From positions 1-39,589 of the forward strand of contig JALUXB010000064.1 in the NCBI GenBank assembly GCA_027019175.1: a stretch of DNA of 39,589 bases. The letters run 5' to 3'. Shown here piece by piece: positions 12,820 to 38,578 of the stretch. The notes beneath the pieces were generated by a model. The model worked only from the letters and a program-made list of their open reading frames with translations, made no database searches and was not told the origin of the DNA. Both the position numbers and the translations under genes were made by a program. How positions within the stretch are numbered: position 1 is the first letter of the stretch; the number at the start of each line of letters is the position of its first letter. The DNA comes from Sulfurovum sp. GTDB lineage: Bacteria > Campylobacterota > Campylobacteria > Campylobacterales > Sulfurovaceae.

Positions 12820-12841
12820 GGTGCGTGAATACGCACCCTAC
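12820..12841 (-). repeat. REP hairpin, GTAG family
   Basis: GGTGCGT (12820-12826), a GAAT loop and ACGCACC (12831-12837) are followed by CTAC; read on the minus strand this is GTAG plus a 7-bp palindrome, the layout of RAYT-associated REP sequences. It sits 19 bases after the purL stop. Related copies lie at 37530, 37811, 37862, 38282 and 38557. Confidence 0.8.
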
Positions 12842-36484: not shown

Positions 36485-37459
36485 CTAAACCTTTCGGCTC
36501 ACTTCGGCAATCTTCTCCAGGTGTGCCGCTGCCTTGCCGCTGTCTATGGCCTCTTTTGCCATGGCAACACCCTCTTCAATATCCCGTACCTTGCCGTCGA
36601 CAAAAAGAGCGAAAGCGGCATTAAGCAGTACAATATCACGTTTTGCACCCTGTTCTTTTCCGGAAAAAATATCACGGGTGATCTGCGCATTATGCTGCGC
36701 ATCTCCACCCAAAATTGCCTCTTTTGGTGCCTTTTTGAATCCGTAGGTTTCCGGGTCTATCTCCCCTTCACTGATACGTCCGGTTTCCACATAGGCAAAG
36801 TTGCTGTTTGCTGAAAGAGATATCTCATCCATCCCATCCTGGGCACTGACAACATAGGCACGTTTGGCACCCAGCTCTACCAGTGCCTCAGCCATTCTTC
36901 TGATGAAAGAAGGATCAAACACACCCAGCAGGTACTTTTGCGCACCGGCCGGATTGGTTAGAGGACCCAAAATATTGAAGATGGTACGGTGATCAATCGA
37001 TTTACGAATCGGCATGATATGCTTCATCGCCGGATGATGATTCATAGCAAAAATAAAGGCGAATCCGGTCTCTTCAAGCATCTTCACCTGCGCTTCTACA
37101 GGCAGGTTGAGGTTAATACCGAGTGCTTCGAGTACATCGGCTGAACCGGACTTGGAGGTGATGGAGCGGTTACCATGCTTGGCGACCACACACCCCATCG
37201 ATGCAAGCAGCAGAGAAACCGTTGTTGAGATGTTAAAGCTTCCGCTTTTGTCACCACCTGTGCCAACCACATCGATCGCCTTTCCACGAAGCTCTTCAGA
37301 AATTGGCAATTTCACCGAATGCTCACGCATCACCGATGCCGCAGCAGCAATATCCGCACTGGTTTCACCCTTCTTATAAAGATCGATCAAAAACTGACGT
37401 GCTTCATTCTCACCCATCTCGTTGTTAAACAACCGCTCAAATTCATTTCTTATACTCAT
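36485..37459 (-). CDS. trpD: anthranilate phosphoribosyltransferase
   Basis: Joins anthranilate to PRPP in the second committed step of tryptophan synthesis. 324 aa from ATG 37459, which has GAAGG 7 bases upstream; a longer in-frame start at 37501 would read into a repeat hairpin. An N-terminal helical domain (about 1-65) precedes the PRPP-binding GTGGDKSGSFNIST (about 75-88) and KHGNRSITSKSGSADVLE (about 102-119), then MNHHPAMKH, the ILGPLTNPAG loop and VSAQDGMDEIS. No other trp gene is in the window, so the pathway is scattered or split elsewhere. Confidence 0.95.
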   Translation of the reverse strand: MSIRNEFERLFNNEMGENEARQFLIDLYKKGETSADIAAAASVMREHSVKLPISEELRGKAIDVVGTGGDKSGSFNISTTVSLLLASMGCVVAKHGNRSITSKSGSADVLEALGINLNLPVEAQVKMLEETGFAFIFAMNHHPAMKHIMPIRKSIDHRTIFNILGPLTNPAGAQKYLLGVFDPSFIRRMAEALVELGAKRAYVVSAQDGMDEISLSANSNFAYVETGRISEGEIDPETYGFKKAPKEAILGGDAQHNAQITRDIFSGKEQGAKRDIVLLNAAFALFVDGKVRDIEEGVAMAKEAIDSGKAAAHLEKIAEVSRKV

Positions 37460-37481
37460 TTTACACCTTCTCATCAAAAAA

Positions 37482-37509
37482 GCTTTCCCCAAGAAAAGCA
37501 TACCACAAC
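37482..37509 (-). repeat. GGTA-headed hairpin repeat, copy 2 (imperfect stem)
   Basis: GCTTTC (37482-37487) and GAAAAGC (37493-37499) form a hairpin with one unpaired A. The segment GAAAAGCATACCACAAC (37493-37509) recurs exactly at 38191-38207. It lies between the S4 gene and trpD. Confidence 0.6.
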
Positions 37510-37529
37510 ACTACACTCTTCACTAATCT

Positions 37530-37553
37530 GGTGCGTCGTTTTACGCACCCTAC
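37530..37553 (-). repeat. REP hairpin, GTAG family, supplying a stop codon
   Basis: GGTGCGT (37530-37536) and ACGCACC (37543-37549) surround a 6-base loop and are followed by CTAC (37550-37553), minus-strand GTAG. The TAG of that tetranucleotide is the stop codon of the S4 gene (37552-37550). The REP therefore abuts and terminates the reading frame. Confidence 0.8.
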
Positions 37554-37795
37554 AGTTCTTTAACGTATTCCTCTTTCTGTGACTTTGGGATCGTCTTTGT
37601 TGCCGGTATTTGGAGGACTTCATAAGACTTTGGTCCCTTGAGGTACTCAATGGTAATCTTGTCACCAATCTTAATGTCTTTGCTGGCTTTGGCCTTCATA
37701 CCGTTAACATAAACCACCCCGCTTTTGAGCATATCGGTTGCAATGGTTCGCCGCTTGACCACATTGACCGCACTCAGCCATTTATCTACACGCAT
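37550..37795 (-). CDS. S4-domain RNA-binding protein (Hsp15/RqcP-like)
   Basis: An 81-aa protein that is almost entirely one S4 fold: MRVDKWLSAVNVVKRRTIA, the DMLKSGVVYVNGMKAK loop and KIGDKITIEYL. Hsp15 (HslR) and RqcP share this layout and act on stalled 50S subunits bearing peptidyl-tRNA, so a role in ribosome rescue is likely by family. The tail (about 60-81) is Lys/Glu-rich. Its TAG stop lies inside the GTAG of a REP hairpin, so the last residues VKEL may have been set by that insertion. A REPIN lies immediately upstream. Confidence 0.87.
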   Translation of the reverse strand: MRVDKWLSAVNVVKRRTIATDMLKSGVVYVNGMKAKASKDIKIGDKITIEYLKGPKSYEVLQIPATKTIPKSQKEEYVKEL

Positions 37796-37810
37796 GTTTT
37801 TCCTTTAGTC

Positions 37811-37886
37811 GGTGTTGTAAGGGTACAACACCCTACAAAATTATTGCAAAACATTCATACCGTAGGGTGTTGTCCCCGACAACACC
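37811..37886. repeat. REPIN: two GTAG-family REP hairpins in inverted orientation
   Basis: First unit: GGTGTTGT (37811-37818), loop, ACAACACC (37825-37832), CTAC (37833-37836). Second unit, opposite strand: GTAG (37862-37865), GGTGTTGT (37866-37873), CCCCG loop, ACAACACC (37879-37886). The tetranucleotides face inward across a 25-base spacer. The stems share the GGTG base with the GGTGCGT copies but differ at the tip on both sides, so pairing is kept. Confidence 0.82.
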
Positions 37887-37894
37887 TTTAGATA

Positions 37895-38137
37895 TTATTG
37901 CTTAAACATCGCCTCGGCTTCTTTAGCGAACTTGTTTCCCTTCATGGTCAGGTTTCCCATCTTGTTGATCAGTCCGTCACGTTTGAGTTCATTCACAAGT
38001 TTTTTGGCTTCGGCAGGCGAATAGCTTCCGGTAGCCACAAGTGAGTCAATCACCTCTTCGAGCGATTCGCCTTTCTGCTTCTTGAGAATACCCAACAGTG
38101 TCACACGTTTGAGAAGTTTTTTGTCTTCACTGTTCAT
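37895..38137 (-). CDS. small winged-helix-like protein, paralogue A, 80 aa
   Basis: A short protein of unknown function. Residues 1-35 form helices (EDKKLLKRVTLLGIL, then SLEEVIDSLV). The rest looks like a winged helix-turn-helix: YSPAEAKKLVNELKRDGLI as helix-turn-recognition helix, then MGNLTMKGNKFAKEA as wing and final helix, as in small regulators with a LT.KG motif. By hand alignment about 42 of 80 positions are identical to the next gene (38300-38539), and both end EAMFKQ. ATG 38137 is preferred to 38161 because AAAGGA precedes it. DNA binding is inference. Confidence 0.75.
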   Translation of the reverse strand: MNSEDKKLLKRVTLLGILKKQKGESLEEVIDSLVATGSYSPAEAKKLVNELKRDGLINKMGNLTMKGNKFAKEAEAMFKQ

Positions 38138-38179
38138 TGTGCTATCCTTTAAGTTGCCCACTAACCAAAACCAATAAAA

Positions 38180-38207
38180 GCTTTTCTATAGAAAAGCATA
38201 CCACAAC
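38180..38207 (-). repeat. GGTA-headed hairpin repeat, copy 3
   Basis: GCTTTTC (38180-38186), loop TATA and GAAAAGC (38191-38197) form a perfect 7-bp stem followed by ATACCACAAC, identical over 17 bases with 37493-37509. It lies upstream of paralogue A. Confidence 0.65.
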
Positions 38208-38246
38208 TTTTCAGAAGATAAATTACAAAGCAAGAAAAGCTCCCCT

Positions 38247-38267
38247 GTGGGACAATTCTATACCCAC
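38247..38267. repeat. short inverted repeat of unknown role
   Basis: GTGGG (38247-38251) pairs with CCCAC (38263-38267) across an 11-base loop in the gap between the two paralogues, 15 bases before a REP. It may be a decayed hairpin of the same kind. Confidence 0.3.
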
Positions 38268-38281
38268 TTTTCGCCATTATC

Positions 38282-38303
38282 GGTGCGTGACTACGCACCC
38301 TAC
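38282..38303 (-). repeat. REP hairpin, GTAG family, supplying a stop codon
   Basis: GGTGCGT (38282-38288), GACT loop and ACGCACC (38293-38299) are followed by CTAC (38300-38303). Minus-strand TAG within GTAG is the stop codon of paralogue B (38302-38300), exactly as at the S4 gene. Confidence 0.8.
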
Positions 38304-38539
38304 TGCTTGAACATTGCCTCGGCAGCTTTGGCTTCCGTAAGTCCTTTAAGTGTCAACTGTCCATCGAGAAGATATTTTTCTGCTTTGAGCTCTTTAAATA
38401 TCCGTTTTGCCTCTTTGAGAGTGTACATACCGGTTCCTACCAGTATATGCATCACCTCATCGAGTGTTTCATCAGGCTTTCGGTTCATAACACCAAGCAG
38501 CGTCACCTGTTTGAGCAATTGTTTGTCTTCCTCATTCAT
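38300..38539 (-). CDS. small winged-helix-like protein, paralogue B, 79 aa
   Basis: A tandem duplicate of the preceding small gene. It shares EDKQLLKQVTLLG at the N-terminus, the TGMYTLKEAKRIFKELK helix-turn-helix region, the QLTLKG wing and the EAMFKQ end. The hydrophobic pattern is conserved while surface residues differ, as expected for functional paralogues rather than a decaying copy. AGGGA lies upstream of ATG 38539. The stop codon is provided by the GTAG of a REP, and another REP lies upstream at 38557. Function unknown. Confidence 0.75.
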   Translation of the reverse strand: MNEEDKQLLKQVTLLGVMNRKPDETLDEVMHILVGTGMYTLKEAKRIFKELKAEKYLLDGQLTLKGLTEAKAAEAMFKQ

Positions 38540-38556
38540 AATAAATCCCTATAAAC

Positions 38557-38578
38557 GGTGCGTGATTACGCACCCTAC
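38557..38578 (-). repeat. REP hairpin, GTAG family
   Basis: GGTGCGT (38557-38563), GATT loop and ACGCACC (38568-38574) are followed by CTAC (38575-38578). It directly adjoins the hairpin at the end of dapD. Confidence 0.8.

Follow-up and report, generated by a model that had tools for sequence, protein, structure and literature searches.

GTAG-headed REPs overlap stop codons in Sulfurovum and recur at the end of one S4-domain gene

Introduction

Two genes in a 39,589-nucleotide stretch of Sulfurovum DNA (the window, taken here at its whole length) end in a TAG that also belongs to the GTAG head of a REP. This raises the question of whether such elements bring the stop codon with them, settle at TAG stops that were already present, or overlap gene ends by chance, and whether they shape the proteins that end there. 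The host is a sulfur-oxidising sea bacterium, and the window makes up contig 64 in a 2.2 Mb genome (labelled G000).

The Rickettsia palindromic elements are palindromic repeats that turned into parts of genes. They add internal codons, whereas the Sulfurovum REPs end the gene. Both kinds of repeat are mentioned by Di Nocera et al. (2013, PMC3733652), who list Sulfurovum among the hosts of GTAG REPs and remark that GTAG termini 'often provide' the TAG stop (there called opal) of flanking ORFs; the idea of stop supply is already in print. GTAG has also been described as the element's guide sequence for a Y1 transposase (PMC8266576, PMC6006769).

Results

Two stop codons in the window

Genes were called with a codon-usage caller made for this analysis, and the calls are not an annotation. 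The features at issue are as follows.

36485–37501, minus strand: trpD (anthranilate phosphoribosyltransferase; TIGR01245, E 9e-111), the next gene after S4
37530–37553, minus strand: REP with GTAG head, GTAG + GGTGCGT-AAAACG-ACGCACC; TAG at 37552–37550 is the stop of the S4-domain gene
37550–37795, minus strand: S4-domain protein gene, 81 aa, C-terminus ...YVKEL-TAG (Pfam PF01479, E 4.7e-8)
37811–37836, minus strand: REP with a GGTGTTGT-type stem in the gap separating paralogue A from S4, clear of any stop
37862–37886, plus strand: REP with a GGTGTTGT-type stem in opposite orientation
37895–38137, minus strand: paralogue A, 80 aa, C-terminus ...AMFKQ-TAA, stop without REP head; comparator for B within the window
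38282–38303, minus strand: REP with GTAG head, GTAG + GGTGCGT-AGTC-ACGCACC; TAG at 38302–38300 is the stop of paralogue B
38300–38539, minus strand: paralogue B gene, 79 aa, C-terminus ...AMFKQ-TAG, stop inside the REP head
38557–38578, minus strand: REP of the same stem family; the next upstream gene has its stop 22 nt before it
12820–12841, minus strand: REP 23 nt past a stop; the same position is also occupied in the sister genome G045

The S4 reading frame (37795–37550, minus strand) closes with GTT AAA GAA CTG TAG, and the GTAG at 37553–37550 runs directly into GGTGCGTAAAACGACGCACC, which folds into a 7 bp stem with a 6 nt loop. Paralogue B (38539–38300, minus strand) closes with TTC AAG CAG TAG, where the GTAG at 38303–38300 is followed by GGTGCGTAGTCACGCACC (stem 7 bp, loop 4 nt). 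Both elements thus carry a 5' GTAG with a palindrome directly after it, as GTAG-superfamily REPs do, and both are single REPs rather than pairs. The sequence-only reading that the two stops are the TAG of a GTAG-REP is confirmed at 37552–37550 and 38302–38300. Both cases are silent at the protein level. The S4 orthologues share the terminal Leu; paralogue A, which matches B at 46% identity, finishes in the same FKQ, and so in the same Gln, with TAA in place of TAG. A Pfam search with paralogues A and B returned no family at E 1e-3. The closest relative over S4–trpD is a Sulfurovum MAG (L285, 95% identity), whose S4 gene ends in CTG-TAA without a GTAG-headed REP.

The two GGTGTTGT REPs at 37811–37886 have GTAG heads that face each other, the reverse of the usual REP pair. 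Another repeat, TATGCTTTTC...GAAAAGC, often with TTGTGG in front of it, lies at 37470–37515 and 38178–38206 and is also present in L285, L302 and L308; it is intergenic near S4 and at other places.

Distance of REPs from upstream stops

The pattern GTAGGGTGN{6,18}CACC matched 145 copies in the window genome and none in a reversed control. We used 143 of these, read in context across 66 stretches and the window (two lay outside the stretches read); for one of the 143 no gene was called on the GTAG side, and 97 have a same-strand gene there. The REP TAG is the stop of the upstream gene in 20 of the 97. No REP among the 97 lies 1–4 nt past a stop and none is read through by its upstream gene (negative distance), while 19 lie 5–11 nt past the stop, giving 39 within 0–11 nt. 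In high copy number and in mostly intergenic position, as shown by the absence of read-through among the 97, these REPs match the GTAG superfamily.

The stop peak of 20 compares with ~2.7 REPs per position at 5–11 nt, a roughly sevenfold difference (Poisson P ~1.5e-11), and all 20 occupy the single stop-giving phase (P ~3e-10 under equal phases); paired elements are not fully independent in these figures, and the 20 stop REPs lie in 20 genes. Distances 1 and 2 are ruled out by the sequence itself. Distance 4 is disfavored because the base before GTAG would there be the last base of the stop, A or G, while that base is a pyrimidine in 128 of the 143 REPs.

A count against chance had been proposed as a check, and its answer is divided. 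The overlap stands far above the density at neighboring positions, but its excess over a stricter control, non-coding GTAG outside REPs that falls on the stop of a same-strand gene (25/185 versus 20/97), is not significant (p = 0.13). Position alone therefore does not distinguish a GTAG borne by the element from a pre-existing GTAG used as target, and the comparison leaves room for REPs that insert directly 3' of such a tetranucleotide.

Repeated takeover of the S4 stop

A scan for S4 relatives with their flanks gave 66 loci, of which 65 were examined and one (L347, partial and distant) was left aside; L345–L346 are omitted from the S4 trees, and a second tree also omits eight rows without trpD. 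The protein ends at residue 81 in 50 of the 65 orthologues, 45 of these in Leu, and it still ends at this ancestral Leu81 where a REP sits at the stop. GTAG is present at the stop in 12 of the 65, with a hairpin directly after it in eight:

L286, L290, L294, L301, L304, L313, L319, L322

The L319 hairpin was identified by eye. Together with the window, these make nine Sulfurovum lineages with a GTAG hairpin exactly at the S4 stop (L287, whose left stem has decayed, is excluded). The stems mostly differ, although L294 resembles L301 and L286 resembles L290. On the 56-row tree the nine lineages require nine changes, at least six of them forced by well-supported branches, and a single clade is rejected (tree test, p 1e-4). 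The change count does not separate gain from loss; the differing stems make it more likely that REPs were gained separately or that one REP took the place of another.

The nearest REP-free relatives of the nine (two relatives each serve two tips) have no TAG at all (0/9; TAA in seven, TGA in two), compared with a TAG background of 13/54 among REP-free S4 orthologues. GTAG occurs in only three of these 54 and in all REP-bearing ones. The nearest relatives thus suggest that the REP brings its TAG and does not seek TAG stops, and they support a stop repeatedly supplied by REP insertion, which the sequence-only reading had offered as one of two possibilities. In three other orthologues (L293, L297, L316) the stop is TAA or TGA and a hairpin of a different type begins right at it.

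Fit of REP pairs between S4 and trpD

Species without a REP here often have the trpD ATG immediately adjoining the S4 stop, as in GAGCTTTAAATG. In six loci (L286, L290, L304, L313, L319, L322) a REP pair exactly spans the S4–trpD gap, from TAG to CTAC (CTAT in L322), with GGAG directly after CTAC/CTAT and 6–7 nt before the trpD start. The S4 gene of another Sulfurovum genome, G012, has a like arrangement, a REP pair from stop to GGAG. Of the 45 REPs in the window genome that face a gene start, 8 have CTCC (GGAG in complement) no more than 3 nt from GTAG, compared with 1 of 98 others. Read simply, the REPs fill intercistronic space up to two signals that need to be retained. The S4 pairs show no old stop on their right-hand side, far-end CTAC leading straight into GGAG, and insertion beside a pre-existing GTAG would leave the same picture.

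Protein ends in orthologues without REPs

Relatives without a REP were found for 17 of the 20 stop-overlapping genes (55 relatives, five genomes), three having no usable one. Controls were 22 genes with a REP 5–19 nt away (74 pairs), drawn from 43 candidates at 5–40 nt, and pairs were dropped if the relative had a REP head at its stop. Lengths differ by no more than two residues in 46 of the 55 stop-overlap pairs and in 67 of the 74 control pairs. Equal-length pairs share their last residue in 8/27 cases, against 32/47 in controls (Fisher p 0.002, with non-independent pairs; per gene 4/17 versus 12/22, p 0.10), and five of the eight identical pairs come from uvrB. With uvrB excluded, REP-free relatives compared with one another at these ends agree in only 5 of 14, which indicates that the tails vary regardless of REP. 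One protein (L032) is shorter than its relatives in G002 and G045 and longer than that in G003. The suggestion that REPs shape protein ends thus survives weakly: the last residue is often changed, but length is kept and tails vary without the element.

These relatives use TAG as often as the controls' relatives do (15/55 versus 20/74, p = 1.0), which gives no support to insertion targeted to existing TAG stops, the other possibility raised from sequence; a comparison over 64 S4–trpD rows gives it none either. The non-REP GTAG baseline and uvrB keep some weight on its side. The exception is uvrB (UvrB by NCBIfam), with TAG in six of seven relatives that have no REP at the stop (G001–G004, G006, G045; TAA in G005), and from these sequences the uvrB TAG predates its REP. 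The proposed comparison of C-termini in REP-free orthologues accordingly gave a divided answer, as S4 keeps the same Leu with no TAG of its own in the nearest relatives and uvrB does have its own.

Recurrence in other genomes

In G012 a REP supplies the stop in 7 of 21 cases, with none at 1–4 nt and none at negative distance; the share is 1/3 in G010 and only 1/28 in the sister genome G045, all within sampled stretches picked from the listing of one pattern. A second REP family with a GGTCG stem has 115 copies in G011 and 136 in G038, other genomes of the genus, and in this family 6 of 21 lie at a stop, with one at −40. In a small sample from E. coli K-12 (206 kb; 13 strict REPs, eight with a same-strand upstream gene), none of the eight lies at a stop. 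In G012 two convergent genes both take their TAG stop from a single REP pair (L231:7010–7102), which a pre-existing target would explain on one side only.

Pairs, decay, and a candidate transposase

Many copies form inverted pairs with GTAG outward and fixed spacing: there are 37 GTAG...CTAC pairs, eight of them 93 bp. In this they resemble REPINs (Bertels and Rainey 2011, PMC3116915), likewise inverted GTAG-headed pairs; the pairs, most often 93 bp long here, are like REP doublets, and no mention of stop codons was found in the text of that paper.

REP presence or absence differs between sister genomes G000 and G045, and stop-overlapping REPs are common to both at L011, L028, and L075. No clean empty site emerged from comparing the two: most sites occurred in both genomes, had been rearranged, or were truncated where a contig ended. 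Simple insertion predicts that the gene's former last base and stop persist on the right-hand side of the element; a possible remnant of them was seen in one gene only (L028, TTATAG). At one gene stop (L060:2231 versus L263 of G045) the sister species carry REPs of different stem families. Heads that have decayed keep the stop in all three cases, a small number: GTAG has become ATAG at L013 and L066 in G045, and the L028 head in G002 now reads GTAA.

Six REP pairs and their spacers (L013, L014, L015, L028, L054, L063) are nearly or fully identical between G000 and G045 in surroundings of about 88–94% identity; recent exchange or constraint could lie behind this.

The sole Y1 transposase gene of the genome (PF01797) encodes the HYH and Y-three-residues-NP motifs and is predicted to be RAYT-like, the likeness to RAYT/TnpA_REP (PMC8266576, PMC6006769, PMC2817692) being one Y1 gene with these motifs. 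It differs in lacking an adjoining REP: none was found in the 3.3 kb read around it (L009, contig 30 of G000). Its C-terminal part weakly resembles DUF6115, below the family cut-off.

Discussion

Our preferred reading, with a probability of about 0.68, is that these are ordinary GTAG-superfamily REPs whose GTAG is borne by the element and whose stop peak is produced by a phase filter. GTAG would travel in the element as the guide tetranucleotide for its Y1 transposase, presumably through RAYT transposition. The element would land at a pyrimidine-ended boundary (Y/GTAG), after the second base of the last codon, so that this codon becomes NYG and is followed by an in-frame TAG from the element. 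In either of the other two phases an insertion would be read through and hence go unseen; selection of this kind may account for the isolated peak and the empty phases, only the NYG-TAG phase being tolerated in last codons. The change can be silent, since the third base is irrelevant in NCN, CTN, and GTN boxes, and in S4 CTN/TTR would become CTG/TTG. Silent entry would allow the same codon to be hit repeatedly at gene ends that have no spare intergenic space. Selection would then retain the captured TAG while the repeat decays.

IS200/IS605 elements insert beside a target tetranucleotide. If Sulfurovum REPs likewise inserted directly 3' of a GTAG already in place, stop overlap would follow simply because non-coding GTAGs close to genes often contain a TAG stop. 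The similar frequency of non-REP GTAG at stops, the older TAG of uvrB, and the seamless S4 pairs fit this proposal. We nevertheless consider it unlikely, given that the nearest S4 relatives have no TAG and few REP-free orthologues have GTAG, that relatives of the 17 genes show no TAG excess, and that one G012 pair ends two convergent genes; in addition, published biochemistry places GTAG inside the element (PMC8266576).

Functional selection for a hairpin at the stop, kept because it lowers translation or protects the transcript when within 15 nt, accords with the 39 copies at 0–11 nt and with a report that E. coli REPs less than 16 nt from the stop reduce translation (PMC12306157), but the genes hit are unrelated (uvrB, the S4 protein, and others) and the absence at 1–4 nt and the single phase are left unexplained, which makes it very improbable as the cause. 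Chance overlap in crowded intergenic space, expected to some extent because REPs cluster near gene 3' ends, fails the density and phase tests, is contradicted by repetition of the pattern in two other sets and by nine lineages at one S4 codon, and retains next to no credibility.

The element-borne reading invites a broader and more tentative proposal, which we hold at somewhat less than even odds. Stops may serve as recurrent docking points for REPs, the last codon of a gene in a gapless operon being the sole silent entry that a Y/GTAG boundary permits. Different REP families would for that reason converge on the same codon across species, pairs would act as exact linkers between one gene's stop and the next gene's ribosome-binding site, and the TAG would outlive the element.

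The REPs themselves are ordinary, and the interest lies in their recurrence. They share with the GTAG superfamily (PMC3733652) the GTAG head, short palindrome, intergenic position, and high copy number; the accessible part of that paper lacks stop-overlap counts, a phase analysis, an orthologue comparison of captured stops, and recurrence at one codon. In the literature searched, mostly without subscription papers, the stop-overlap statement was found only there and recurrence of REPs at one codon was not found; the count, the phase filter, the S4 recurrence, and the stop-to-GGAG fit are new in the sense that none was found in that literature.

A one-sentence remark in the literature becomes a pattern that is measured and replicated and whose cause can be tested. 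The S4–trpD junction, which REPs have entered in at least six to nine Sulfurovum lineages, offers a natural assay for REP insertion sites. The pattern shows how an element confined to intergenic DNA can enter operons whose genes leave no spacing, and if stops are indeed docking points, mobile DNA would continually feed stop-codon turnover.
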